A stretch of DNA of 22,728 bases from a virus. The stretch lies in the IMG/VR virus record IMGVR_UViG_3300028597_000078, positions 1-22,728 of that record. The stretch is one strand, 5' to 3'. The notes beneath the pieces were generated by a model that was given only the letters and a program-made list of their open reading frames with translations, made no database searches and had not been told where the DNA came from. Below are positions 7,823 to 19,751 of the stretch, piece after piece (the first letter of the stretch is position 1; every line of letters starts with the position of its first letter). A program made the translations under genes and the position numbers.

Positions 7823-9307
7823 TTAGAGTACGGCGATGGATGCGAGGGTGACTTGCTGGATGCTGCCTCCGTCGCAATAGAACAGTTTCACTGGAGGCGA
7901 CTGGCGCTGCTGTCGAACCTGAGTGGTAGCAGGCAGGATCTGCAGATAGTAGCCATCGTTCTGCAGGCTGTTGGTGATATCAAAGCCAACCTGCGCAGCG
8001 ATATTGGTCTTTTGCGACTCGCTCAGCGGTACGCCAGTCCGAATAGAGCCATTATTTAGCGCCTCGCTGATCGGGTCAGTACACCAAGAGCGAATGTAGG
8101 TTTCGCCCAGGGCATTGTATGGCGCCGAGTTAACAGAGCGCAGGCCATTGAAGATAGCCAGGGCCAACTGAGAGTTCAGGTAAACCTGGTTCAGGAAGGT
8201 ATCCAGCCAGCGGAACTTGGAGCCATTCATGCGACCGTCATACAGGATGCTGTAGACGTTATCCGGGCCTGGCGCCTGATAAAGGCCGTAGTAGCTGGCG
8301 TTGTTCGACAGCACGGCAGTTGCATCGGCAAGACTGTCAACAGATGTTGCAAGTCCTGATTGAGACTTGAATGCTGCAGTGGCGCGCCCGTTTACGGCAG
8401 CCCAATCGATGCAGCCAGCGTAGCTGCAGACGAATGCGCCGATGCTTACCGGGCCGTAGAAGACCGCGACGCCTTCGTAGTTCAGCAGGTCAACGATGCT
8501 GCCGAACACGGCGGCGTTGTTCGCAGTCTTGTAGCCAACCTCGGTATCCCAGGCGATGTACGCATAGCGGTTATTCTGCGCATTCGACCAGACTGCAAAA
8601 GCGGTTTTGTTTGCCAGGTCCGGCTCCCACAGGGTGGTAAAGGTCGCCCAGTTCTGCTCTTGCAGCTTGATGCGATCCATGGCCGAAGCGGGGGTGTCAA
8701 CGTCGGCGCCCTGCGACAGGACGCCAGCGGACAGGCCGAGCGATGCGGCTGCAGTGCCGGTTGCCTGGGTGATGGTCGAAGTGGCGCCGGTAGTGCCGGA
8801 TGTCACCACGAAGTTCGACGCCAGCGGATCCCAGGTCACGGCAGCAGGGCCAACCAGGCCGAGCGCAGTGGTCAGCAGGGTTGCGGCGTTCGTGAAGCTG
8901 GTGGCGCCACTCAGGTCGATGGAAGCTGCGGTTTTCACGACACCATCAATAGTGATGGTCAACGAGCCGGTGATCGCCTGCAGCTGGGTCAGAGTCAGAC
9001 CTGCCAGCGATTGGCCGCGCAGCCAGGCTGCACGCGCCACATTCGCATAGCCAGCAAAGAACAGGGTGCCAGGCTTCTTGGTGCTGTTGTCGAAGCCGGT
9101 GAAGTAGATGTCAGCTGCAGTCTTCTCGGCAGAGTTACTGCCAAAGTAGGCGCCAACCGAATCGGCATCAGCGAACGACAGCAGGCTGGAAACAGGAACC
9201 AGAAGGCTTTGATCCAGGAATACAGCATTCAGGGAGAGCGGGTTGCCACCGGCTTCGACAACTGCCGGATTTACGGTGGCGATTTGCGAAATCGGGATCG
9301 CTCGCAT
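7823..9307 (-). CDS. Contractile tail sheath protein (DUF3383)
   Basis: The protein has 494 residues, a normal length for the family. It opens with AIPISQIATVNPAVVEAGGN and LNAVFLD, then SFADADSVGAYFGSNSAEKT, which is the typical start of DUF3383 proteins. An inserted domain (about 100-200) is rich in G, T and A. The C-terminal part (FRWLDTFLNQVYLNSQLALA, then YIRSWCTDPISEALNNG) is the conserved sheath core that makes the inter-subunit contacts. The ribosome site GGAG lies 8 bases before ATG 9307. The sheath contracts to drive the tube through the envelope. Antisense frames here are long because of the GC-rich codons and are ignored. Confidence 0.9.
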   Translation of the reverse strand: MRAIPISQIATVNPAVVEAGGNPLSLNAVFLDQSLLVPVSSLLSFADADSVGAYFGSNSAEKTAADIYFTGFDNSTKKPGTLFFAGYANVARAAWLRGQSLAGLTLTQLQAITGSLTITIDGVVKTAASIDLSGATSFTNAATLLTTALGLVGPAAVTWDPLASNFVVTSGTTGATSTITQATGTAAASLGLSAGVLSQGADVDTPASAMDRIKLQEQNWATFTTLWEPDLANKTAFAVWSNAQNNRYAYIAWDTEVGYKTANNAAVFGSIVDLLNYEGVAVFYGPVSIGAFVCSYAGCIDWAAVNGRATAAFKSQSGLATSVDSLADATAVLSNNASYYGLYQAPGPDNVYSILYDGRMNGSKFRWLDTFLNQVYLNSQLALAIFNGLRSVNSAPYNALGETYIRSWCTDPISEALNNGSIRTGVPLSESQKTNIAAQVGFDITNSLQNDGYYLQILPATTQVRQQRQSPPVKLFYCDGGSIQQVTLASIAVL

Positions 9308-9311
9308 GTTT

Positions 9312-9818
9312 TTACTCCGTAGGTGTAGTCTGATCTACAGGATCGACCATTACGTCGCCGACCTCGATGAAAGATTCCTGGCCAACCGTAACACTGGCAT
9401 TGTACTGCAATGACAGGGTTATGATCCAGCGCGCTTCGAATTGCTTCTCGCCAGTGATCAGCGGGGCTTGAATTGCATCCGAACAGTAGAGCGGGGCAAC
9501 TCCATCGGGGAAGTTTTCGACGGCATAACCGCTGCGAAGCATGGTGTTTGCGATGCCGGACATATCGCCAGCTTGCAGGCCGTAGAAGTCCAGTTGAACG
9601 TCCAGGCGAACTGGCTGCAGATAGGTGTCCTGCTGAATGACGCCACCAGAGGTCACGCGAGTAGTCGTGTATTGCGGCTTGCCGACTTCGGTAATAACTA
9701 TCGACGGCGGAAGTGGTGGCGGCACATCGTTGGTCTGCCCGCGAACAATGGTTGTCGCAACAGGCATTAGCGGCTGCAGGAAGTCGGCTACTGCGACGAT
9801 TGCTTCGTCAATGGTCAT
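9312..9818 (-). CDS. Neck / tail terminator protein (gp12-like, LIC_12616-type)
   Basis: The protein has 168 residues from ATG 9818, which is chosen over a start 63 bases upstream because the preceding gene stops across it as ATGA and because MTIDEAIVAVADFLQPL is the usual beginning. Further blocks are IVRGQTNDVPPPLPPSIVIT and YLQPVRLDVQLDFYG. This pattern is common in the protein encoded just before DUF3383 sheaths and thought to close the tube or neck. The C-terminus carries ITLSLQYNASVTVGQESF and a short acidic tail. Family and function are inferred from pattern and position. Confidence 0.7.
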   Translation of the reverse strand: MTIDEAIVAVADFLQPLMPVATTIVRGQTNDVPPPLPPSIVITEVGKPQYTTTRVTSGGVIQQDTYLQPVRLDVQLDFYGLQAGDMSGIANTMLRSGYAVENFPDGVAPLYCSDAIQAPLITGEKQFEARWIITLSLQYNASVTVGQESFIEVGDVMVDPVDQTTPTE

Positions 9819-10000
9819 GGGTATTGCTCTTGGGCAGAATAACCGCGCAGCCATTCCGTTTGTTCGTACGAATGCCTGCATCCGCTATACGGGCACGATA
9901 TCCACGATTGTCCATTGCGCCTAGCCTCGCACCCCTCTTGGAATGGACTTTTTTTGGCTGCGCCGCCAATTAGAATGGTGGCAATCTCTTCATTAGTCAC
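9815..10000 (-). CDS. Small RMF/CrpP-like protein
   Basis: This 61-residue gene starts at GTG 10000. The GTG overlaps the TGA of the upstream gene as GTGA, and its own TGA overlaps the next ATG as ATGA, so it fills the space exactly. AGGAG lies 8 bases before the GTG. The core is EGCEARRNG (22-30), then SCPYSG (35-40) and EWLRGY (49-54). The spacing G-x-x-A-x-x-x-G, CPY and WL-x-G is that of ribosome modulation factor and the related CrpP-fold proteins. RMF of E. coli binds the 16S rRNA 3' end region and drives ribosome dimers. Extra cysteines C24 and C41 are present. Its target here is unknown. Confidence 0.7.
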   Translation of the reverse strand: MTNEEIATILIGGAAKKSPFQEGCEARRNGQSWISCPYSGCRHSYEQTEWLRGYSAQEQYP

Positions 10001-10398
10001 GCTACTGGCTCCTGATAAACAATTGCCACCTTGCACCAAGTCGGCCAGGTTTCAAGCACTTTGAATACGCCCCATTCGCGCTCTTTGGTGATGCCAGCCT
10101 CATTACTAGTGAAGATTACGTGCGATTGCGGGCTAGCATCTTGGCGAACGACGCCTGCAATACTCCCGTAGAGGTACATGGCGCGGATGGTGCCCTGGAT
10201 GTTTAGCCCATTGATCTGAGCTAGATCATCGCCATCGAGTGCCTGCAATTGGCCTTGGGCAGATTGCGTGATGTATCCAGGCACTTGGCGGCGAGTAACA
10301 GGGTCAATCGTATAGCCGTTCGGCAACTTCACAGTCACCGGAATGTTTGGGTTTACCGCCTGGATCGCGCCATTGGCGATGCCGCGAACGTTGATCAT
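9997..10398 (-). CDS. Conserved head-tail connector-region protein (collar type)
   Basis: The protein has 133 residues. It opens with MINVRGIANGAIQAVNPNIP and has QLQALDGDDLAQINGLNIQG, RAMYLYGSIAGVVRQD and a C-terminal VLETWPTWCKVAIVYQE block. This combination is common in phages with DUF4054 and gp10-like neighbours, and some annotations call it a collar or head-completion protein. I do not know of a proven biochemical role. It overlaps the upstream gp10-like gene as ATGA and the downstream RMF-like gene as GTGA, so it belongs to a tightly coupled neck operon. Confidence 0.65.
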   Translation of the reverse strand: MINVRGIANGAIQAVNPNIPVTVKLPNGYTIDPVTRRQVPGYITQSAQGQLQALDGDDLAQINGLNIQGTIRAMYLYGSIAGVVRQDASPQSHVIFTSNEAGITKEREWGVFKVLETWPTWCKVAIVYQEPVA

Positions 10399-10931
10399 TG
10401 ATCGACCTCGTAGTCGATGGAGTTGAGCATGTGGCCGGTCCAGACAAGTGGCTTGGCTTGAGTACCGCCAGCGCCCTTGGCGCCTTCTGCCGCATCACGC
10501 TGAGCGTCCAGCACATCACCGAACCGGATATCCTGCGGGTTAGTCCAGAATCGCTGCCTGAGTACCAGTGTAGTTGGCGACAGCTCTGGTCCGCTGATAT
10601 TGATTATGCTCTCGCGCAGCTCACCAGCGATACTTTCACCCATCGCGCCCAATGCCTTTTGGGCATCCATGTCGAAATAGGAGAGAGCCTTCCCGAGCCG
10701 AACAGCCCAGCCAGGCGAATCATTGGCGACCATAGTGCGGAAGAATGGGCGAGGAGGGGATGGGAACCGCCCTCCATGACCGAATTCGTTCCAAAATGCG
10801 ACCTGCGCAACCGGGGTGCCATCTGGATAGGTTGCGCCAGCCAGGAATCCAACTTTGACGGATCCCTTGGCATTCTCTGCAATCTGCGCGAGAACCTTTT
10901 CCAGCTTGTCACCGCCAGTTAGCGCGGCCAT
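10395..10931 (-). CDS. HK97 gp10-like neck/tail completion protein
   Basis: The protein has 178 residues. Residues 27-39 read VGFLAGATYPDGT and 48-65 run NEFGHGGRFPSPPRPFFR. The VGF-x-x-G...Y-x-DG-x-x-VA...NEFG...PPRPFFR layout is the signature of the HK97 gp10-like/virion morphogenesis group, which forms part of the head-tail interface. The C-terminal half contains helices, a TTLVLRQRF segment and a KPLVWTGHMLNSIDYEVD end. The start overlaps the DUF4054 stop by one base (TGATG). Confidence 0.75.
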   Translation of the reverse strand: MAALTGGDKLEKVLAQIAENAKGSVKVGFLAGATYPDGTPVAQVAFWNEFGHGGRFPSPPRPFFRTMVANDSPGWAVRLGKALSYFDMDAQKALGAMGESIAGELRESIINISGPELSPTTLVLRQRFWTNPQDIRFGDVLDAQRDAAEGAKGAGGTQAKPLVWTGHMLNSIDYEVDQ

Positions 10932-11338
10932 CAGTAGCGAGTGCAGCGAGGGCGATAGCGGAAAGACCGCAGATAAGCGGTAGCCTGCCAGAATGATGCG
11001 CCATATGGCGTCTGCGCAAACCAGGCCGCAGTCCAGGGAGCATTATATTCCGAACTTATCGAAACACTGCCCTCTGTAGCGCTGGAGGTGCGCCCAACCA
11101 TGCCAGTCGGAATGCCACCATTGGTCGCACCATTGATCTGCGCCAAGTGAGCAGTCAGCATCCAAAGCAACTGCTCGCGCTTGGTCATGCTCTTGACGAC
11201 CGAGCAGCAGTCATTGGCCAGGTACAAGCCAGCCTCATCAAAGTACGACTGCAGCAGGCTGTCGGATACACCGGCAAATGCGGGATAGCGCTCTTTGAAG
11301 CGCGCAGGGTCGAAAATGACGGTGCATTCGTCAGCCAT
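10931..11338 (-). CDS. DUF4054 head-tail connector protein
   Basis: The protein has 135 residues. The N-terminal FDPARFKERYPAFAGVSDSL segment, the LLWMLTAHLAQIN helix and the block VGRTSSATEGSVS (81-93), then AWFAQTPYGASFWQATAYLR, are diagnostic of DUF4054. These proteins behave like the gp6/gp15-type adaptors that bind the portal. The gene starts across the stop of the 79-residue gene as TAATG. The C-terminus RPRCTRY looks slightly extended and basic. Confidence 0.85.
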   Translation of the reverse strand: MADECTVIFDPARFKERYPAFAGVSDSLLQSYFDEAGLYLANDCCSVVKSMTKREQLLWMLTAHLAQINGATNGGIPTGMVGRTSSATEGSVSISSEYNAPWTAAWFAQTPYGASFWQATAYLRSFRYRPRCTRY

Positions 11339-11577
11339 TAGCAGGTGATCCTTAGGTCGCTCGGATATCGTGAGAGATCGCGAATCAGGTCAGCCTGACG
11401 AAGCTCCGAAGATCGATTGATCTCAAGCGGCGCAACCCTGATCTCCGGCGTAACTTTGACGAAAACCGTCTTGAGGTGATCTTTGACCATTTGCCATTGC
11501 TCAGGCGTAGGCATCTCCTGAGCGGGATTCATTTCTACATGCCCTTGCAGCCAGTATGCGAATTGCTCAGGAGTCAT
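11338..11577 (-). CDS. Conserved small phage protein
   Basis: The protein has 79 residues and begins MTPEQFAYWLQGHVEMNP, followed by PTPEQWQMVKDHLKTVFVKV. This start is common in small proteins of phage structural clusters, but I know of no assigned function. The first 45 residues are predicted to be two helices; the rest is polar and basic. A GGAG ribosome site lies 8 bases before ATG 11577. It lies 5 bases downstream of the 110-residue gene and overlaps the DUF4054 gene by one base. Confidence 0.7.
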   Translation of the reverse strand: MTPEQFAYWLQGHVEMNPAQEMPTPEQWQMVKDHLKTVFVKVTPEIRVAPLEINRSSELRQADLIRDLSRYPSDLRITC

Positions 11578-11930: not shown

Positions 11931-11991
11931 CGGGTATTGCTCTGTCGAGCGCTTGAGTTGTGAGCATACCCGCAGCAGGGAGAATGGGCAA
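11931..11991 (-). promoter_or_regulatory. Candidate promoter overlapped by an inverted repeat
   Basis: On the minus strand TTGCCC (11991-11986), a 17-base spacer and TATGCT (11968-11963) form a moderate sigma-70-like promoter (4 of 6 matches each). The -10 lies in one arm of an imperfect inverted repeat: 11962-11972 pairs with 11931-11942 with one bulged base. The repeat could be an operator or a 5' RNA stem-loop. It precedes the 110-residue gene and the connector operon and lies just after a strong hairpin. Promoter activity is inferred only. Confidence 0.4.
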
Positions 11992-11997
11992 ATTTTG

Positions 11998-12034
11998 GGC
12001 AAAGTAAAGCCCCGGTTAAGGGGCTTTACTTGCC
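11998..12034 (-). terminator. Strong hairpin, probable intrinsic terminator
   Basis: Bases 12002-12013 pair perfectly with 12020-12031 (12 bp, loop of 6). The stem continues for 3 bp past one bulged base. It starts 9 bases after the stop of the 71-residue gene. Read on the minus strand, the hairpin contains AAAGCCCC...GGGGCTTT followed by a short U-poor tail (ACTTTG), so it could be a weak or leaky terminator or an RNA stability element. Confidence 0.55.
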
Positions 12035-12042
12035 GGTCCAGC

Positions 12043-12258
12043 TCAATCTTCGGCAATCGTCACAGTGTAAGTTTTGCCGCTATCAAGCTTATCCGCCTCA
12101 TCCAGACTCATAAGGCCAAGGCTGATCTTGGCGTAAGGCGCCCATGCGAACAGCGCCTCATTGTCAGCATTATCGCTGACAACTGGAATCATCTCTACCT
12201 CGGCGCTCGCATCGTAACGGATGATCCTTTCGATCTTGAATTTGGCTTGAATGGCCAT
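12043..12258 (-). CDS. Small conserved phage protein, 71 aa
   Basis: The protein begins MAIQAKFKIERIIRYDASAE and ends with LDSGKTYTVTIAED. The pattern (short beta strands, a central acidic N/D-rich segment, then a strand ending in GKTY) resembles a common group of small phage proteins found next to capsid genes, for which I know of no function. AGGTG lies 6 bases before ATG 12258. The gene sits between two hairpins, at 12271-12294 and 11998-12034, and so is the only gene in its own small segment. It may be expressed by read-through from the capsid gene. Confidence 0.7.
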   Translation of the reverse strand: MAIQAKFKIERIIRYDASAEVEMIPVVSDNADNEALFAWAPYAKISLGLMSLDEADKLDSGKTYTVTIAED

Positions 12259-12270
12259 CTAGCACCTCGT

Positions 12271-12294
12271 AAAAAGCCCGCCGTAGCGGGCTTT
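12271..12294 (-). terminator. Intrinsic terminator after the major capsid gene
   Basis: On the minus strand a 7-bp GC-rich stem AGCCCGC / GCGGGCT with a 4-base loop (12282-12285) is followed by a run of five T. Two further A-T pairs extend the stem. It lies 8 bases after the capsid stop. In the plus direction the T-run is only three, so the minus reading is favoured. Partial read-through is likely because no strong promoter was seen before the next gene. Confidence 0.8.
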
Positions 12295-12301
12295 GCCTTG
12301 A

Positions 12302-13375
12302 TCAAACGCCCAGCATGCCCTGGATGAACAGCGGACGGTAGATCACCGTACCCCAGGTGCCAGCTGACTTCTTCTGCTTGAACGCCGACAGCTCCTGAAT
12401 GATCGGATGCGCACGCATCTTCTCGGTGAAGGAGCAATCCCAGGTGCGCTGGCCTTCGTACTCTTCGATGACCATCTGCACCTTCTGGCCGCCAGCAGTG
12501 GCGTACTCAGGAACGGTGCGGATCTCCAGGCGCGGATAGGTCTTCTTGAGGATGTCTGCCACGTTCACGTTGAACTGATCGGTGATGGTCAGCGCAACAG
12601 AGGCTTGCGGCGACATGATCAGCACGATCGGGTCGGTGGTTTCCAGCAGGCCTTGGGTGCGAGCCTGCAGCGTGAAGAACATCTTGGAGATGTCACGCTG
12701 AACCTCGACGGCGGTTGCGTTGACGTTGCCGTTTGGCAGGATCCACGCGGTGCCACCAGCGGCCTTGGTGATCGGGGTCAGGTCTGCTGGCAGAGCCGGG
12801 TCGTTCAGCATGCCGTAGTTCTGCAGGCCCGAGACGCCGAACAGGTAGGTCTTGTTCTGGTACTTGTTCAAGGTCAGCGCCGAAGCGATGTTCTTGCGAG
12901 CAGCCAGGTCGATCTTGGCTAGGCCAGTATCAGCCAACTCCTTTTCACCCCACTGGGTGATGGTCTGATAGCTGTACGACTGGCGTTGCGGGAACTGGAA
13001 GTTCACGCCAGCGCTGCCGGAGTTGTTGTAGTCGCCGTAACTGGTCGCCTCGCCGGTGGATTCGATCACCGGGAACATCGCGGTCCGAGTGGTCCAGTCG
13101 CCAGTTTTCTTCTCGCCGCCAGCCGCTTCCGCAGCTTTCATCGGGGCGACCAGAACCTCGATCAGCTTCGGATCGATGTAGGTGGAAAGCATGGCCGGAA
13201 TGCCGGCGTTGGAGGTGGTGATCAGCGGATAGGCCGCATCCATCGCCACCATGGCGCCAGCGTGGTCCATGCCGATGATGTCGCGGTAACCGCGATCATC
13301 CGGCAGCATGCGAGCGTTGAAGCCATCGAAGGCGATACCTGCGCGCTCAAGCAGGGCTTTCATTTTCGGGTCCAT
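12302..13375 (-). CDS. Major capsid protein (DUF2184)
   Basis: The protein has 357 residues. It has the DUF2184 capsid pattern: a helical N-terminal arm, PAMLSTYIDPKLIEVLVAPM (E-loop side), then GDWTTRTAMFPVIESTGEAT, then GVNFQFPQRQSYSYQTITQW and GEKELADTGLAKIDLAARKN, and a C-terminal MRAHPIIQELSAFKQKKSAG end with GTWGTVIYRP. It would adopt the HK97 fold and form hexamers and pentamers. A strong AAGGAG lies 6 bases before ATG 13375. The gene is followed by a terminator, which fits the need for much more capsid protein than downstream connector proteins. Confidence 0.9.
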   Translation of the reverse strand: MDPKMKALLERAGIAFDGFNARMLPDDRGYRDIIGMDHAGAMVAMDAAYPLITTSNAGIPAMLSTYIDPKLIEVLVAPMKAAEAAGGEKKTGDWTTRTAMFPVIESTGEATSYGDYNNSGSAGVNFQFPQRQSYSYQTITQWGEKELADTGLAKIDLAARKNIASALTLNKYQNKTYLFGVSGLQNYGMLNDPALPADLTPITKAAGGTAWILPNGNVNATAVEVQRDISKMFFTLQARTQGLLETTDPIVLIMSPQASVALTITDQFNVNVADILKKTYPRLEIRTVPEYATAGGQKVQMVIEEYEGQRTWDCSFTEKMRAHPIIQELSAFKQKKSAGTWGTVIYRPLFIQGMLGV

Positions 13376-13385
13376 TGCGTGCTCC

Positions 13386-13892
13386 TTAGGCCGGACGAGA
13401 CATTACGACCAGCTCGCCAACGGCACCAGTGCCGCCGACCGGGAAGCCGGTGATGGTGAAAGCGGTTTCGATGTAACCCGCTACGGTTGCGCCAGCTGCA
13501 GCGCCCTGGATCTCGCCAGTGGTCAGCGAGGCGAATACCTTCTGGCCAACGGTGACAGGGTTGGTAATCGGGGCGACCCAGTAATCACCAGTTACCTGCA
13601 GGGTGACTTCGAAGCCCTGAGGGATGACCATCGAGGTTTCGGCCAGGTAGGTGGTGATCAGCGCCGAACCTTGCAGGCGGTTGACGAAGCCAGTCGGAAC
13701 GCCCGAACCTGCGTTGGTTACTACGCCAGCGCCGGTTGCCCAGGCGAAGCAACCGACAGTTACGCCGCCGACGCCAGCAACCAAGGTGCCTTCGTGCGAA
13801 ACGAACGAGCTACGCGGGTTGGCAGACGCGAAGTCACCAGCTACAGCCGCAGCCTGCTGGAGTTGAACGGTTTGTTGGAAACCAGTTGCCAT
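13386..13892 (-). CDS. Capsid cement/decoration-type structural protein
   Basis: The protein has 168 residues and is beta-rich with many G, A, T and V. It begins MATGFQQTVQLQQAAAVAGD and contains HEGTLVAGVGGVTVGCFAW and DYWVAPITNPVTVGQKVFAS. The position between the DUF2213 and capsid genes, and the similarity to structural cement proteins (Gp24 type), suggest that it stabilises the capsid. AAGGAG lies 8 bases before ATG 13892. It stops 10 bases before the capsid start. Confidence 0.7.
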   Translation of the reverse strand: MATGFQQTVQLQQAAAVAGDFASANPRSSFVSHEGTLVAGVGGVTVGCFAWATGAGVVTNAGSGVPTGFVNRLQGSALITTYLAETSMVIPQGFEVTLQVTGDYWVAPITNPVTVGQKVFASLTTGEIQGAAAGATVAGYIETAFTITGFPVGGTGAVGELVVMSRPA

Positions 13893-13904
13893 GATGTCGT
13901 CTCC

Positions 13905-14618
13905 TTAGCTGAAACGTTCGAGGCCTTTGATGGTCGCGGCAATCGCGGCATCGGAGGCAAGGGAAACGGGAGCCTGCTCGACCTTACGGCCATTGGCGAC
14001 CTTGAACAGGTTGGCCAGGCCAGCGTCAGGAGTATCCTTATGCTCGACCTTCATGTGGTCGAGGGCGAAGCGGTAGACCTGAGCGGCGGAGTCCATAGCA
14101 ATTACGTCGCCAACCACTGGGCGGACGGCCGCTTTGGCGGCATCCATTTCGCGGAATTGCTTGGTCAGGTCGGCGCGCATGGAGTCCATGGCGGTCTTGA
14201 CATCTTCTTCTTTCATGAAGCCCTCGGGGTCTTCGTCGGTTGCGCCAGGGGATTCCTTGGCCGACAGCATGGCGCCGACAGCCTCCAGATCTTCTGGAGT
14301 CAGGCCCTTGCCGCGCAGGAAGTCGATGATCTCGGCGTGCTTCGGATCGGTCGATGGATCGTTGTCGGTCGCAGTCGCGGTCAGATCCTGCGGACTCGGA
14401 TCCTGCTCGACATCGAGAACGGCATCGATGATGTTGTCCAGCTGCTCGGTATCAACTTCGCTGTCCATCGCAACGATGGCGGCGACGATATCCTCGCGCT
14501 TGAAGCCTTTCTTCTTGGCGCCACCCACCTGAGCAGCCAGGGCCGAATCCTGGGCGAGCTTAGGGGCGACGCCAGAAAGCGCGGCCAATAGGGCAATGCC
14601 CAGTTTCGTTTTCTTCAT
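13905..14618 (-). CDS. Possible nested scaffold product from an internal ATG
   Basis: In the same frame as the DUF2213 gene, ATG 14618 (residue 196) is preceded by AGGAAG at 8 bases, an almost complete Shine-Dalgarno. The 237-residue product would begin with MKKTKLGIALLAALSGVAPK and contain only the acidic helical scaffold half. Lambda C/Nu3 shows the same protease plus nested scaffold arrangement. The initiation itself is an inference; the site could also be chance. Confidence 0.4.
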   Translation of the reverse strand: MKKTKLGIALLAALSGVAPKLAQDSALAAQVGGAKKKGFKREDIVAAIVAMDSEVDTEQLDNIIDAVLDVEQDPSPQDLTATATDNDPSTDPKHAEIIDFLRGKGLTPEDLEAVGAMLSAKESPGATDEDPEGFMKEEDVKTAMDSMRADLTKQFREMDAAKAAVRPVVGDVIAMDSAAQVYRFALDHMKVEHKDTPDAGLANLFKVANGRKVEQAPVSLASDAAIAATIKGLERFS

Positions 14619-15203
14619 GACAGGGGCTTCCTGTTTATTGGTGAAGGGGTTGGCGTCGGCCACCACAACATCGGGGCCAGCTCGACCGGATTCTACCAGA
14701 GCGAGATGATTGCCGCGAATATTGGTCATTCTGCCGTCGTATGGTTTGCCTTCGAACTCGCCTGGCTCCATTACCGCTTCATAGTGATAGGAGGAGGATA
14801 GTTCGACCATTGCCTTAGTTTCGACGGCAGCGATCCCGCGCTCATCCCAAATGCACATGGATGCGCGTAGGTAGGGGTGATCGTAGCTGGTATCACTGAT
14901 TGAGCCGACGATGATATCGGTCTGCGGATCGCCAGCCTTCTGATGCACATGCTTGAGCATCAGCGGCAGATTGTTGAAGCTGTCTGCGGCGCGCTCCAGC
15001 TCTACGGGGTCGCGGAGAAGGTAGTAGATCTTTTGCGGATCAAGGCCAAGCTCGGCAAAGCGAGGGATCTCGCTCCCATAATACGGATTGACGACCGCCT
15101 TACTGATATTCGACTGAGCAACATGCATCCGCCCATCGTCGTCAATACGTCGAGCAGAGGCCCGGTCAAACGCGATCAGGTTGGCGGTATTCGCTTTCGG
15201 CAT
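13905..15203 (-). CDS. DUF2213 protein, probable head maturation protease/scaffold
   Basis: The protein has 432 residues. The N-terminal half (1-180) is the DUF2213 domain, ending in RGNHLALVESGRAGPDVVV (163-181). It begins with FDRASARRIDDDGRMHVAQS and contains FNNLPLMLKHVHQKAGDPQT and VGSISDTSYDHPYLRASMCI. The C-terminal half is acidic and helix-rich (EDIVAAIVAMDSEVDTEQLD, and FMKEEDVKTAMDSMRADLTK), as in phage scaffolds. DUF2213 proteins are thought to be prohead proteases fused to scaffolds; catalytic residues are not assigned here. The start overlaps the membrane protein stop (TGATG). An internal start at residue 196 is listed separately. Confidence 0.8.
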   Translation of the reverse strand: MPKANTANLIAFDRASARRIDDDGRMHVAQSNISKAVVNPYYGSEIPRFAELGLDPQKIYYLLRDPVELERAADSFNNLPLMLKHVHQKAGDPQTDIIVGSISDTSYDHPYLRASMCIWDERGIAAVETKAMVELSSSYHYEAVMEPGEFEGKPYDGRMTNIRGNHLALVESGRAGPDVVVADANPFTNKQEAPVMKKTKLGIALLAALSGVAPKLAQDSALAAQVGGAKKKGFKREDIVAAIVAMDSEVDTEQLDNIIDAVLDVEQDPSPQDLTATATDNDPSTDPKHAEIIDFLRGKGLTPEDLEAVGAMLSAKESPGATDEDPEGFMKEEDVKTAMDSMRADLTKQFREMDAAKAAVRPVVGDVIAMDSAAQVYRFALDHMKVEHKDTPDAGLANLFKVANGRKVEQAPVSLASDAAIAATIKGLERFS

Positions 15204-15391
15204 CAGTTCTCTAGCCTTCGATCAATGTTGTTCCGCATCATCGCATAACAGTCATCAACTTCGCCCCGAGTTTGTGCAAGCTCGAAGCAGGTGGATTCGT
15301 TGCGCATCTGAGCCTTAATTTCCTGGCGATCTTCGTGAGTCCAGATGAACCATATGCAAATCGCCACAGCAATCATGATGCGCATAGCCAT
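15203..15391 (-). CDS. Small single-pass membrane protein
   Basis: The protein has 62 residues. After MAMR the segment IMIAVAICIWFIW forms one membrane helix, followed by a charged cytoplasmic or periplasmic part with two cysteines (C35 and C48) and many R/E/D residues. It does not look like a holin (only one short helix) and has no lipobox, so the function is unknown. AGGAG lies 3 bases before ATG 15391 and 9 before ATG 15385; the second start, giving 60 residues, has the more usual spacing. The gene lies between the HNH gene and DUF2213 and overlaps the latter by one base. Confidence 0.6.
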   Translation of the reverse strand: MAMRIMIAVAICIWFIWTHEDRQEIKAQMRNESTCFELAQTRGEVDDCYAMMRNNIDRRLEN

Positions 15392-15422
15392 TATCTCCTG
15401 TCAGATCTTGGCGGGGTTAGTA

Positions 15423-15447
15423 TGCGCTCACCTCAGTGATGAGCGCA
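15423..15447 (-). other. Stem-loop after the HNH gene
   Basis: TGCGCTCA (15423-15430) pairs with TGAGCGCA (15440-15447), an 8-bp perfect stem with a 9-base loop. It starts 9 bases after the HNH stop. There is no T-run, so it is not a typical intrinsic terminator. It may protect the mRNA end or reduce transcription. Confidence 0.45.
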
Positions 15448-15455
15448 ATAGTGGA

Positions 15456-16229
15456 TCAGGGCATGTCAGGCCAGTGACGGTTGCCTTTCGACGCGTTGTC
15501 GGCTTTGCTGATGACCCTCATATTTCCGTGCCAGTGTAGGCCGCACACGACCTCGGAATTTATGGGAACGATATGGTCAACCTCATGCTTTATGCCGGTT
15601 TCCCTTGTGATACACCCCGCAATCTCGTAAAGCTTTGCGCACTCTGCAGCATCAAACCACGCAGGAATTGCTCGCTTAATTTTTGCTCTGCGCTTGGCGG
15701 TATCTATCGCTCTCGCTCGCAGAAACCCCGGAGACCTGGCTGCCGCTCTAGCCCTAGAATACCCTAGGAATTTATCTTTATTCGCAAGGTAATACTTTCT
15801 GTGGCCCCCTCTCAGGCGTTCGCGGTTTTTGATGTAGTAAGCCGCCATGTTCTCCTTGCAGGATTTGGCATTTTCCCTTCGATAGGCGGCGGCGCAGCCC
15901 AGCAGATAACCCCTATTTCTTTGGTAGTATTCTTTCTGTCTAGCCCTTACGGATTCACGGTTGTCCCTGTACCTTACGCGATCCTTTTCACGGGCCTCGT
16001 CAAGATTATTGATCCGCCTATCTCTTTGATATTTTGAGGTTTTCTCCTTGTTCTCGCTTCGCCAAATGGCGCTGTAGGCTTTGACTTTTTCGCGATTAGC
16101 TTGAGCATAGGCCTTGGTTTTTGCTGCATTGCATTTTCTGCAAATCGACATCAGGCCGTCTTTAGCTGATCTTCTAATGCTAAATTCAGGTAAAGCCTTC
16201 TCTAGGCCGCACTTTCGACATTCTTTCAT
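15456..16229 (-). CDS. HNH endonuclease, free-standing homing-type
   Basis: The protein has 257 residues from ATG 16229; a GTG six bases upstream is the alternative. The N-terminus has two CxxC pairs (C4/C7 and C30/C33) spaced as a zinc-binding knuckle. Residues 40-170 hold several diverged 18-20-residue repeats with YY-x-x-NR or NRE-x-x-R motifs, likely an extended DNA-binding helix. The C-terminus (215-257) is the HNH nuclease: HEVDHIVPI, then GLHWHGNMRVI, then ADNASKGN. The base composition appears more AT-rich than neighbouring genes, and the gene breaks an otherwise regular head cluster, so it is probably a mobile insertion. It would cut a related phage that lacks it. Confidence 0.85.
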   Translation of the reverse strand: MKECRKCGLEKALPEFSIRRSAKDGLMSICRKCNAAKTKAYAQANREKVKAYSAIWRSENKEKTSKYQRDRRINNLDEAREKDRVRYRDNRESVRARQKEYYQRNRGYLLGCAAAYRRENAKSCKENMAAYYIKNRERLRGGHRKYYLANKDKFLGYSRARAAARSPGFLRARAIDTAKRRAKIKRAIPAWFDAAECAKLYEIAGCITRETGIKHEVDHIVPINSEVVCGLHWHGNMRVISKADNASKGNRHWPDMP

Positions 16230-16261
16230 TGACACTCACTCATCAAGTGGCCATCTGAAGG

Positions 16262-16324
16262 TCGCGACAGGTAGTGATGAGCTACTTTTCGGCTGGCCTG
16301 CCTAGTCGCGAATTGAGTATATCA
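16262..16324 (-). promoter_or_regulatory. Candidate extended -10 promoter and stem-loop before the HNH gene
   Basis: On the minus strand TGATATACT (16324-16316) matches the extended -10 form TG-N-TATAAT in 5 of 6 core bases and overlaps the stop of the head morphogenesis gene. The expected RNA start near 16309 falls at the start of an imperfect inverted repeat, 16298-16311 against 16262-16274, bearing TCGCGA in both arms. No good -35 is visible. The motif resembles that at 21980-21988. Confidence 0.35.
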
Positions 16325-17113
16325 GAAAGGAAGAATTGTTTTGCTTACGCAACGACAGTTCACAAGAATCCCGGGAAGAATGTGCTCACCATCTATTAAG
16401 GCTCCCTCGCGCACATCGAATCTCAGGCGATCTTTGCCAGCCTTTACATGAGATGCCCTGGGTGTTTTCCCGCCATGGCTGTGGACCCATTCGGCCTCAA
16501 ACAACCCAAGCTCTACGCGCCTAGCTTGGGTGACCACCGCGGAAAGCTTGTTGCTCTGATCCCTGCTGATAGTTGCAGCCCTGCGCCTGCATATTCCAGT
16601 TTGCTTAACCAGCTCATCAGTGATGTAGCTTAGATCTCTCCCGGTAGCAAACCCCCTCATTACAATTCCCTGGACCTCGGTAGAGTATTTCTGGGGTATT
16701 GATTTTATGAGCCGAATATTTTCTTCGATTGATGCATTAGCCGCATCCCGCATAGCCGGAGTCATCTGAAACTCAACCGCCCAGCCTGCGTCCTTTAGCG
16801 CCGACTGGAATGCCTTTGTGGTCGCAACTTGGCCGGAATCCACGAACTTCTCGGCAACGGTTTTCGCGACATCATTAAAGCGCCTTTCCCATTGCTTGGT
16901 TAGGGCGCGGATCCGCTTAGCCAGAGCTTGCGAGGGAAGGGCGTCCATAGCCACCTCCATGCGCGGAGGATTGGCCTTGTACGCAGCCGTTATCCAGTAG
17001 TCGAAGCTGCGGACCATATCGGAGACAAGCACGTCGAGGCGCTTGCGATAAGCAGCCTCGACGCCTTGGTTTGGGTGAACTGCTCGCGCAGTTTTAGGCT
17101 TTTTGGTTGCCAT
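16322..17113 (-). CDS. Head morphogenesis protein, Mu gpF-like
   Basis: The protein has 263 residues from ATG 17113. The C-terminal quarter has the Mu F signature: RRAATISRDQSNKLSAVVTQ, then GLFEAEWVHSHGGKTPRASH, and ILPGILVNCRCVSKTILPF at the end. The N-terminal part is helical and basic. Mu gpF-like proteins are minor head proteins injected or used in capsid assembly and are usually encoded next to the portal. Here they are separated from it by two unknown genes. A TTG nine bases upstream of the ATG has AAAGG at better spacing and is an alternative start. The upstream gene overlaps by 20 bases. Confidence 0.85.
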   Translation of the reverse strand: MATKKPKTARAVHPNQGVEAAYRKRLDVLVSDMVRSFDYWITAAYKANPPRMEVAMDALPSQALAKRIRALTKQWERRFNDVAKTVAEKFVDSGQVATTKAFQSALKDAGWAVEFQMTPAMRDAANASIEENIRLIKSIPQKYSTEVQGIVMRGFATGRDLSYITDELVKQTGICRRRAATISRDQSNKLSAVVTQARRVELGLFEAEWVHSHGGKTPRASHVKAGKDRLRFDVREGALIDGEHILPGILVNCRCVSKTILPF

Positions 17114-17933
17114 CGATATCAATTAAGCCTTTGTCGTATAGCGCGCCAATAACATCAGCTACAGAGCTGGCGCTAGTAATTGGCGAGTTGGCGCCACCAA
17201 TTTTGCGGAGGCATGCGCCGATGATTTCGCTCTTTTGCTTTTCGCGCTCTTCCGCCGCGATCTGCTCGGGAGTGCGGATGGGGCGAAAACAGCCGAAGCT
17301 CCCCTGTTCAACTTGAACCATTCCGCGATCTGTGTTTTCAGGATCGAACGTAAAGGCTGCCAGTGTGAAGTCGCCGCTCTTGAAGTGAGCGATGATTGTT
17401 ACACGCATACCCTCTCGCAGATCTTTGTCGAAGGGGTCTTCAGGGCATGGCGTTCCGCCTGCGAACTCGCAAACGGTTCCAACCGGCGGCATCCCTTTGC
17501 CGGTCCATTCTTTCTTCCGCAGCGACTCATGAATCGGCTTCATCAGATTCTTCTGCCTAGCCGAAGGGGTATCGAGCGCCCATTGCCTGGAAGGCTCGGC
17601 CCACAGATACCAATTATCGCCAGGTTCACGCATCCACCAGCTGTGGATATCGACCTTGCTCCTGCCTACCGCAACGCCGATGTAGTGAGTGGCGCCGACT
17701 GGGGGGCTGTCCAGATTGGAATGCCTACCGGAGATCAGCGCCTCCCGCGCTTTTTGCCATTGGGCGCGGGTGACGCCATTTGCGCCATCATGCGATGCGG
17801 CAAAGAATAATCTGGAGCTAATATCTGCGCCACCATGAAGATACAGCTCGCCATCAATTGCGCTCTGGGTGATTTCAGATGTGTGCTCCGGCCACTCCTT
17901 CAACTCCCGCGCCAAAATATCAACTAGCTTCAT
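17094..17933 (-). CDS. Hypothetical phage protein, 279 aa
   Basis: I do not recognise a function. The N-terminus (MKLVDILARELKEWPEHTSE) and the C-terminal block GMPPVGTVCEFAGGTPCPED, MRVTIIAHFKSGDFTLAAFT and CFRPIRTPEQIAAEEREKQK recur in many phage hypothetical proteins of varied N-terminal content. The last 40 residues are a small helical tail (SASSVADVIGALYDKGLIDI). The central 60-120 region has WMREPGDNWYLWAEPSRQWA. The protein seems modular: DNA-associated or virion roles cannot be told apart. It overlaps the 71-residue gene as ATGA and the Mu F-like gene by 20 bases. Confidence 0.7.
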   Translation of the reverse strand: MKLVDILARELKEWPEHTSEITQSAIDGELYLHGGADISSRLFFAASHDGANGVTRAQWQKAREALISGRHSNLDSPPVGATHYIGVAVGRSKVDIHSWWMREPGDNWYLWAEPSRQWALDTPSARQKNLMKPIHESLRKKEWTGKGMPPVGTVCEFAGGTPCPEDPFDKDLREGMRVTIIAHFKSGDFTLAAFTFDPENTDRGMVQVEQGSFGCFRPIRTPEQIAAEEREKQKSEIIGACLRKIGGANSPITSASSVADVIGALYDKGLIDIDGNQKA

Positions 17934-18145
17934 GCTGATTCTCCTTTGGCGCGTTCGATTTCGCGAGCGGTAATCGCATCGTGCCTAGCCTGCATGGCCT
18001 TTAAGGTCGCCTCGCGAGTGTCGTGATCGCCGCAAACGGTAAAGCATTCCAAGGCGACACCGGAAATGGTGCCCTCAACCTCCGAAATCATGTTCGGCAT
18101 CCAGATCTTCACTTTGGCGAAATTTGTGCGAGTCGAGCGAGCCAT
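17930..18145 (-). CDS. Hypothetical protein, 71 aa
   Basis: The protein begins MARSTRTNFAKVKIWMPNMI and ends in a charged helix (KAMQARHDAITAREIERAKG). It has no recognised domain. The start is well supported: AGGAG lies 6 bases before ATG 18145, inside a leader that follows a good promoter and a hairpin. The stop overlaps the next ATG as ATGA, so it is the first gene of a three-gene unit (71 aa, 279 aa, Mu F-like). Confidence 0.7.
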   Translation of the reverse strand: MARSTRTNFAKVKIWMPNMISEVEGTISGVALECFTVCGDHDTREATLKAMQARHDAITAREIERAKGESA

Positions 18146-18163
18146 ATCAATCTCCTGTCATTT

Positions 18164-18180
18164 CAGCCCCTCATGGGCTG
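18164..18180 (-). other. Stem-loop at the predicted 5' end of the mRNA
   Basis: CAGCCC (18164-18169) pairs with GGGCTG (18175-18180), a 6-bp stem with a 5-base loop. It starts about two bases after the predicted transcription start and leaves the AGGAG of the 71-residue gene exposed. Such 5' stem-loops often protect phage mRNA from decay. No T-run follows, so it is not a terminator. Confidence 0.4.
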
Positions 18181-18188
18181 GTATTCCG

Positions 18189-18218
18189 ATCATAGATTGA
18201 CATAGTGAATGAGGTCAA
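18189..18218 (-). promoter_or_regulatory. Sigma-70-like promoter between portal and 71-aa gene
   Basis: On the minus strand TTGACC (18218-18213) and TATGAT (18194-18189) are separated by 18 bases. The -35 matches 5 of 6 consensus bases and the -10 matches 5 of 6. The -35 overlaps the portal stop codon. The expected start near 18182 lies just before a hairpin (18164-18180) and 37 bases before the 71-residue gene. Confidence 0.5.
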
Positions 18219-19609
18219 GCGGGAATCTCATCATCTCGCTCTTCAGGCGGCGTCGGGTCAATCGGATTCCCATCAGCATCAAACTCTTCGCTCTCGGGCA
18301 TCTCCGGCAGATCCTCAGGGTCGATGCCCGCATAACCACTATTCTGATCCGAAGACAACCGCTTACGCACATCCTCAGGCGACAGAACGCCGCGATCCAG
18401 ATACACGCCATCGGCATTCGCTTCATTGCTGCGAATGGTGCTTTCCTCTTCCTCGGACATTTGCCAGAGCGGGCAGAATTCGTAGGTGATCGTGGGATCG
18501 ATCTCGCCCCACAGGTTGAGCATGACGACCTTCAGGATCACATCGAGCGGCTTAGCCCAAAATGCTTGCTGCTGGGCTGCAATCCAGTCGTAGAACACGC
18601 GAATCTCGCCATCGCTGGAGGCATTCAGGCCGCTTGGGCTGATGCCGGTAAGGATCATTGCAGGGATCTTCGACACTGAGCACATGTGCTCCTGGGACTG
18701 CGCCTGCAGCTCATGCAGGCCTGACAGCGGCGTGTTGACCTGGGCCAGATCTTCGGTATTGAAGTCGAGGAGCATCAGCCCCAAGTTGCTGCGTGTCGCG
18801 GTGAACAGGTCGGCACGATTCATGACCTCATCAGCACCATCTTCGCAACCACCCTGGAGAAGCGTCTCCATGTTCGTTTTGAGCGTGGTGATCGAGAAAT
18901 TGTTAATCAGATCCGCCACAGACTGCCGAGTGCGCAACCAGTTGTTCACATACGGCTCAGCCAGCTGCGACAGGGACATGCCGCTAAAGTTGAACGCAGG
19001 CTTGAGGATGTCGGGCAGCGGGCGTGTGATGATCGTCAGCAGCCTGGAAGCATGGATGCGCTTGCCCAGGACGAACCACTCACGCGGCACGTAGAAGTCA
19101 GGCGCAGTCGGGTCAATGGCGTTGTAGGCGCTTGGCGAGGTCCATAGCGGCTCAATGGCCGTGAAACTGCGCAACGAACCCTGCTTGATAGTCATGGGCG
19201 AGATGACAAGCGGCAACTCTTCGTCAGCGCCATCAATGTTGATGCTGAACTGAGCGCGGCCAAAGTAGCAGTCGTGCTCGGCCAGCTTCTGGAACAGGTC
19301 GCGGACGCACAGGCGATCCAGCTCCTCGCGCAATTGCGAGATCTTGTGCGCATCGGCCTGCTTCTCGCCGTCGTCGCCCTTGGACTTGATCTCGATCCAT
19401 TTGCGTGTCAGCTCGGTGGACATGGTGGACGCGAACGCCCGGTACTCAGCCCGAGTAGAGAGGTTGGCCAGGTATGGATAGCCAGGGAAGCCATCGAAGG
19501 TCGCACCGTAGCACTGGGCCGCATATGCGTAGACGCCAGGATTGTAGTCCATGGCGACTGCGGACTGCTTACCGGCAGGAATGACGCCAGGAAGGATTGT
19601 CGGGGGCAC
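18215..19609 (-). CDS. Portal protein (DUF1073 family), N-terminus uncertain
   Basis: The protein has 464 residues when started at GTG 19609. Recognisable blocks are PTILPGVIPAGKQ, AVAMDYNPG, FPGYPYLANLSTRAEYRAFA (41-60), ELTRKWIEI, then SGLHELQAQSQEHMCSVSKI and LTGISPSGLNASSDGEIRVF, which are typical of DUF1073 portals. Databases sometimes label this family anti-CBASS Acb1-like; nothing here indicates that activity. The dodecamer forms the DNA entry vertex. No ribosome site precedes GTG 19609, and the open frame continues upstream with protein-like codons to 19753 but without an ATG, GTG or TTG. The real start is therefore in doubt (see finding). Confidence 0.85.
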   Translation of the reverse strand: MPPTILPGVIPAGKQSAVAMDYNPGVYAYAAQCYGATFDGFPGYPYLANLSTRAEYRAFASTMSTELTRKWIEIKSKGDDGEKQADAHKISQLREELDRLCVRDLFQKLAEHDCYFGRAQFSINIDGADEELPLVISPMTIKQGSLRSFTAIEPLWTSPSAYNAIDPTAPDFYVPREWFVLGKRIHASRLLTIITRPLPDILKPAFNFSGMSLSQLAEPYVNNWLRTRQSVADLINNFSITTLKTNMETLLQGGCEDGADEVMNRADLFTATRSNLGLMLLDFNTEDLAQVNTPLSGLHELQAQSQEHMCSVSKIPAMILTGISPSGLNASSDGEIRVFYDWIAAQQQAFWAKPLDVILKVVMLNLWGEIDPTITYEFCPLWQMSEEEESTIRSNEANADGVYLDRGVLSPEDVRKRLSSDQNSGYAGIDPEDLPEMPESEEFDADGNPIDPTPPEERDDEIPA

Positions 19610-19658
19610 AATCGGGAAGCGCGGCGCTTCACCTTTTGGCTGGCGCTCGCGAGCCTTG

Positions 19659-19751
19659 TCAGTTGCGCGACTTTTCAGTAGGCACTGGCAGCGGCAGAAC
19701 CTTGGCTTTGACCTTGGCCTTTTCCTTAGACTTCTTCTCTTTCTTCGCCAT
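19659..19751 (-). CDS. Lysine-rich 30-aa ORF, probable portal N-terminus or small gene
   Basis: ATG 19751 lies two bases after the stop of the 70-residue gene. The ORF begins MAKKEKKSKEKAKVKAKVLP, then PLPVPTEKSRN, and stops at 19659. One base shifted at the GAAAAG run (minus strand) would join it to the portal frame as TESRATDKARERQPKGE, giving a portal with a basic N-terminal tail. It may be a free-standing peptide, a frameshifted portal start or an effect of an indel. Confidence 0.45.
   Translation of the reverse strand: MAKKEKKSKEKAKVKAKVLPLPVPTEKSRN

Follow-up and report, generated by a model that had tools for sequence, protein, structure and literature searches.

The gene studied here lies on the minus strand of a 22,728-base viral contig (hereafter the window) at 9815..10000 and consists of 61 codons and a stop, beginning with GTG. 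Its start overlaps the stop of the upstream gene by the four bases GTGA (9997..10000) and its stop overlaps the start of the downstream gene by the four bases ATGA (9815..9818), and an AGGAG at 10009..10013, 8 bases ahead of the GTG, would serve as its ribosome-binding site judging from sequence and spacing. The upstream neighbour is a head protein gene at 9997..10398 (phrog_1912, 3.6e-33) and the downstream neighbour is a phage neck terminator gene at 9312..9818 (PF23961, 1.9e-21; phrog_1876, 5.7e-39), with the conserved start MTIDEAI at 9818. The tail completion or Neck1 gene is at 10395..10931 (phrog_222, 1.6e-36), and all of these features are on the minus strand; further out, a DUF4054 gene was found upstream and a sheath gene (phrog_205) downstream. 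The gene, both overlaps and the AGGAG are exactly where an earlier note on this DNA had placed them. The translation, VTNEEIATILIGGAAKKSPFQEGCEARRNGQSWISCPYSGCRHSYEQTEWLRGYSAQEQYP followed by the stop, has G23-x2-A26-x3-G30, C36-P37-Y38 and W50-L51-x-G53, which is the conserved core of the Rmf/CrpP family, and the additional cysteines C24 and C41, so that the motif spacing and the cysteines described in that note are borne out as well. A metal site made up of C24, C36, C41 and H43 would be only speculation. A zinc finger was considered and rejected, as the top phmmer matches (YY1 and others) were non-significant and the C2H2 histidines are missing.

In DNA and protein similarity, the structural genes of the window come nearest to the ones in Amjad_SA and Orimi01, two phages of Pseudomonas, and in vB_AsaM-56 and 2_D05, two phages of Aeromonas; in the annotations of these phages, Burkholderia Bcep1/BcepNY3 and Acinetobacter AB1 are cited. 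We take the phage in the window to be Bcep781-like, that is, a myophage related to Burkholderia phage Bcep781, and from the nearest named phages Pseudomonas is a guess for its host. Neither an Rfam family nor a tRNA was found in the window. The head module also holds, at 15456-16235 on the minus strand, a gene for 259 amino acids with CxxC pairs and a HEVDHIVPIN...N-type C-terminus that looks by eye like an HNH endonuclease; Pfam gave no match to it at E 0.01.

When the protein was compared with curated profiles, it scored 30.1 bits with NF041886, the NCBIfam model of the Rmf/CrpP family, which is above the curated cut-off of 28 (29.3 bits in the genome scan). With the narrower models the scores were below the cut-offs, namely 29.5 bits with NF041887, the equivalog for Rmf/CrpP fold proteins of phages (cut-off 40; positions 7-41 of the 43-position model matched), 18.9 bits with the RMF equivalog PRK14563/NF011162 (cut-off 40), 21.8 bits with Pfam RMF PF04957 (cut-off 27.9) and 21.6 bits with CrpP, NF033696 (cut-off 55). 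ORF34 of Tr60_Ab31, a known phage relative, likewise falls under the NF041887 cut-off with 29 bits. In a control with NF041886 one of 14 well-known genomes was above the cut-off, and at the strict threshold only E. coli, which has rmf, was found. With a profile that was derived from five phage RMF-like proteins and did not include the window, the protein scored 40.5 bits, whereas the best of 20,000 shuffles reached 12.7 bits and no other six-frame segment, in the window or in its relatives, scored above 9.6 bits; a mixed profile gave 39.3 bits. The profile from canonical RMFs only gave 11.3 bits, a score that some shuffles exceeded. Since the phage profile scores high and the canonical one does not rise above shuffles, the gene belongs on the divergent phage side of the Rmf/CrpP family. 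In hhalign comparisons with canonical RMFs, residues 19-55 aligned with RMF 12-45 with an E of 1.9e-4 for the protein alone and 5.8e-5 when it was used as a phage profile. Judged by these matches, the gene is a member of the broad Rmf/CrpP family and not a canonical RMF. The RMF/CrpP-like label of the earlier note thus holds at the level of the family, through NF041886, the phage profile and hhalign, but not at the level of RMF or CrpP proper.

The AlphaFold2 model, made from a shallow alignment of 11 rows, has a core at residues 21-50 with a pLDDT of about 90 and predicted helices at 3-11, 19-28 and 41-59. When the PDB was searched with this model, the top match was RMF (2jrm), and it was non-significant (E 1.8, TM 0.39). 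A viral structure library yielded 126 matches at E values of up to 10; none was below 0.001 and many had a probability of 1.0. Several were named ribosome modulation factor (E 0.1-1), and many small phage proteins matched at 1-2.5 A over about 40 residues. The assignment of the fold therefore comes mainly from the sequence profiles, with the predicted structure as support. Close orthologues were not found by pattern scans of viral contigs and phages, and the protein is so far a single sequence; a plasmid scan gave one weak match and no close orthologue, and 398 and 199 sampled genomes gave no close orthologue in two scans that, having no positive control, are weak negatives. The gene had no match in a defence-system library.

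Over 12302-19731 the window is 99.2% identical to its nearest relative, IMGVR_UViG_3300033551_000079, and around the junction of the head and terminator genes about 91%; this relative does not have the RMF-like gene. There the head gene runs straight into the terminator gene with a GTGA overlap, the junction reading ...CAGGAGCCAGCAGCGTGACCATTGACGAAGC..., and the same AGGAG lies ahead and serves the terminator gene. What is absent from this relative is a segment of 182 bp, 9818..9999 on the minus strand, the ends of which are ambiguous by a few bases because of a shared TGAC. Among 33 relatives that have both genes, the junction was empty in 29, with the genes adjacent, overlapping by 4 or 1 bases or separated by a gap of a few bases, and was occupied by another ORF in four; none had an RMF-like gene there. 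The earlier note had proposed checking whether related phages have the gene at this place; none of the 33 does, the one with 91-99% identity included. That note had also held that absence of the frame from close relatives would refute its proposal. This absence does away with a conserved role linked to the neck, but it leaves the family assignment untouched because the insertion is precise and both flanks have stayed intact. An extra gene that is missing from close relatives between intact flanks is what is seen for an accessory cassette. As all the other relatives are without the RMF-like gene, its gain in the lineage of this phage seems more parsimonious than repeated loss, and since a closely related phage has the same neck genes with an empty site, the gene appears to be dispensable for this type of neck.

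Rmf/CrpP-like genes were found elsewhere in the genome in two distant relatives, one scoring above the cut-off (G023) and one below it (G019). A Pfam RMF match in another relative (G005, L130) was dismissed as chance, being antisense within the head protease gene and containing a stop. The window has a second cassette that is missing from the nearest relative, a gene for 79 amino acids at 11338-11577 on the minus strand, directly upstream of the DUF4054 gene, with an N-terminal match to phrog_35763/28500. There is also a mosaic breakpoint at 11969-12302, where identity to the nearest relative rises from 83-91% to 99.2% and where the window has 333 bases against 945 in that relative.

The four other ORFs at the head/terminator junction encode 26 amino acids (L014; possibly not a gene at this small size), 86 amino acids (L010, 1920-2180), 104 amino acids (L017; phrog_11861) and 127 amino acids (L022; phrog_3362/DUF6527), and they share no family match and are unrelated. 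Each of the four overlaps the end of the head gene by 4 bases, as the RMF-like gene does; at the terminator start the overlap is again 4 bases in three of them and 1 base, at the conserved ATG, in L022. Each newcomer begins at the position where the terminator gene would start and therefore takes its ribosome-binding site. The neighbouring Neck1/head junction also has further ORFs in three relatives (L002, which is Amjad_SA, L054 and L028), and in another (L015, 782-1579) a gene resembling GIY-YIG/NUMOD3 homing endonucleases lies between the DUF4054 and Neck1 genes. The first 11 bases of the L010 cassette (ATGAATATCGA) also open the terminator gene that follows it, which hints at a duplication upon insertion. 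When cassette starts were compared with terminator starts, L010 matched at 10 of 15 bases (0.7% of background pairs) and the window at 8 of 15 (3.7%), which is weak, and the other three cassettes showed no such resemblance; insertion by target duplication is suggestive only. With the nearest relative empty, 29 of 33 junctions empty and the remaining four holding ORFs of which none is RMF-like, the most likely reason for the neck location of the gene is that the junction is a slot for repeated insertion, and not that the gene has a function in the neck. The coupling to neck genes, which the earlier note had called unexpected for a ribosome factor, is indeed there, the gene being embedded and coupled by its overlaps, and it would be explained by the junction being such a slot.

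The explanation that we consider probable is that the gene encodes a late accessory, moron-like protein which was inserted into this slot and docks on a host partner, and which is neither a part of the virion nor a classical dimeriser of ribosomes. The word moron-like is used because a simple consensus scan of 9300-10950 found no promoter- or terminator-like signal, such as a classical moron would have of its own. The 182-bp segment that holds the RMF-like ORF would have been inserted at the overlap junction of the head and terminator genes in the lineage of this phage, and late transcription would then produce one structural mRNA that covers both the RMF-like and the terminator genes. Ribosomes that finish the head gene, or that bind at the AGGAG, would begin the RMF-like gene at its GTG, and the terminator would be translated largely by termination-reinitiation at the ATGA. 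The ATGA end of the RMF-like gene supplies the new start codon for the terminator, in front of which the sequence CAAGAGCAATACCC would offer only a weak ribosome-binding site. The product would be small, probably soluble and late, and its helical RMF core may dock on a regulatory protein or an RNA of the host and thereby tune host physiology late in infection. The protein is thus probably a cargo that acts on the host rather than a part of the particle. Late expression from a strong ribosome-binding site would, however, also suit a protein that is made in quantity.

Host RMF hibernates ribosomes, and the earlier note had considered that a phage copy might dampen host translation or protect ribosomes. 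The main rival to the accessory-protein explanation is that the ribosome is the target and is bound through other residues. In its favour are the homology with the core of RMF, which extends over about 37 residues, and the retention of the equivalent of G23 of RMF together with the core glycines and the CPY and WLxG residues. Other hibernation-type factors do occur in phages, hpf in rV5 phages (PMC6969025) and a homologue of a hibernation factor in phage TayeBlu (PMC12772287). In E. coli RMF, however, R3, K5 and R11 are needed for ribosome binding and G23 and R45 for dimerisation (review, PMC8778775), and these five correspond to L10, G12, S18, G30 and S55 in the window protein, so that only G23 is retained, in an ungapped mapping that starts from CPY and WLxG, the motifs common to both proteins, and is approximate in the N-terminal part. 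The protein is also acidic, with a pI of 5.69 against 10.86 for E. coli RMF, and its N-terminal stretch MTNEEIATILIGGAAKKSPFQ has a net charge of 0 where E. coli RMF has +4 over the equivalent stretch; the relatives encoded by the phages Paride, Tr60_Ab31, PS2 and Cr30 are likewise acidic. If the RMF scores below the equivalog and Pfam cut-offs and the canonical-RMF score within the range of shuffles are added to this, the ribosome is a possible but doubtful target. Family membership by itself does not imply hibernation either, given the lost RMF residues and given that BatR (PA3049), a chromosomal RMF homologue of P. aeruginosa, reportedly does not hibernate ribosomes (PMC13411936). The hibernation idea is weakened on both counts.

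BatR instead reportedly binds the kinase SrkA and influences the expression of pyocin and Pf4 (PMC13411936), and one specific form of the accessory-protein explanation is that the phage protein mimics BatR or competes with it at a host kinase, for instance SrkA, and thereby shifts programmes of lysis or of prophages. That the nearest named phages have Pseudomonas as their host would fit, but Pseudomonas as the host of the window phage is no more than guessed and the protein is less close to canonical RMFs than to other members from phages, and we regard this form as improbable. A bolder reading, in which a BatR/RMF mimic made late from a slot that captures a start codon rewires lysis under the control of a host kinase, and not ribosomes, and in which the Bcep781-like junction is a general plug-in site for mini-proteins of this host-directed sort, is a long shot. 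The structural mini-protein that the earlier note had also entertained, a minor component of the virion or neck at the head-tail joint, would agree with the position of the gene between two neck genes and with its coupled translation, but the gene is missing at this junction in all the relatives, including the near-identical one with the same neck genes, and its homologues in other phages are located in small-gene or replication regions, which makes such a role very improbable.

Phage RMF/CrpP-like proteins are an established and named kind that is mostly uncharacterised. What is new here is that a divergent member lies within a structural operon, that its empty site is precise and that the slot is recurrent; a literature search, most subscription journals lying outside it, gave no paper on phage RMF/CrpP-like proteins, the empty site or the slot. 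Mini-proteins with the Rmf/CrpP fold are widespread in phages and their function is almost untested, and the two closely related backbones, one with and one without the gene and both with intact flanks, offer an unusually clean comparison. A junction that repeatedly receives ORFs overlapping start and stop would also aid in finding host-directed mini-genes in structural operons.

The best matches among named phages are Paride_0351 (L058, 3989-4195; annotated as hypothetical) and its relatives in PA5oct-type Pseudomonas jumbo phages, with 34-41% identity and an E of 3e-4. Paride_0351 is also above the NF041886 cut-off of 28, with 29.7 bits, and the PA5oct-type relatives encode a family member too, but Paride_0351 sits among small genes of unknown function and not in a structural operon. 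Paride reportedly replicates in deep-dormant P. aeruginosa, and the main text of the Paride paper does not mention RMF or ribosomes; with a family member in a phage that kills dormant cells, a role in resting hosts becomes testable. The Tr60_Ab31 ORF34-type proteins of P. aeruginosa phages and prophages are 38% identical over the core, and their genes, unlike the window gene, are near genes for ssDNA-binding, exonuclease and recombination proteins. Hypothetical proteins of Serratia phage PS2 (L126, 2465-2614; 33.5 bits) and Caulobacter phage Cr30 (L128, 2462-2659; 34.4 bits) are above the Rmf/CrpP cut-off and are both encoded near a DNA helicase gene. Gp19 of Arthrobacter phage Kovu, which adjoins the capsid protease, was rejected as a precedent in a structural operon, since its 15.5-16.3 bits are below every cut-off. 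BatR, comparable as an RMF homologue with a reported role other than ribosome hibernation, differs in being chromosomal and in having a C-terminal helix extension. Compared with RMF itself (PRK14563/NF011162, PF04957; PDB 6h4n, 2jrm), G16, A19, G23, S25, C29, P30, Y31, W40, L41 and G43 are conserved, and the loop between CPY and WL is three residues longer than in E. coli RMF. With the NF041886 family the window protein shares G-x2-A-x3-G, CPY and WLxG, and what is its own is the long non-basic N-terminus and the two extra cysteines.
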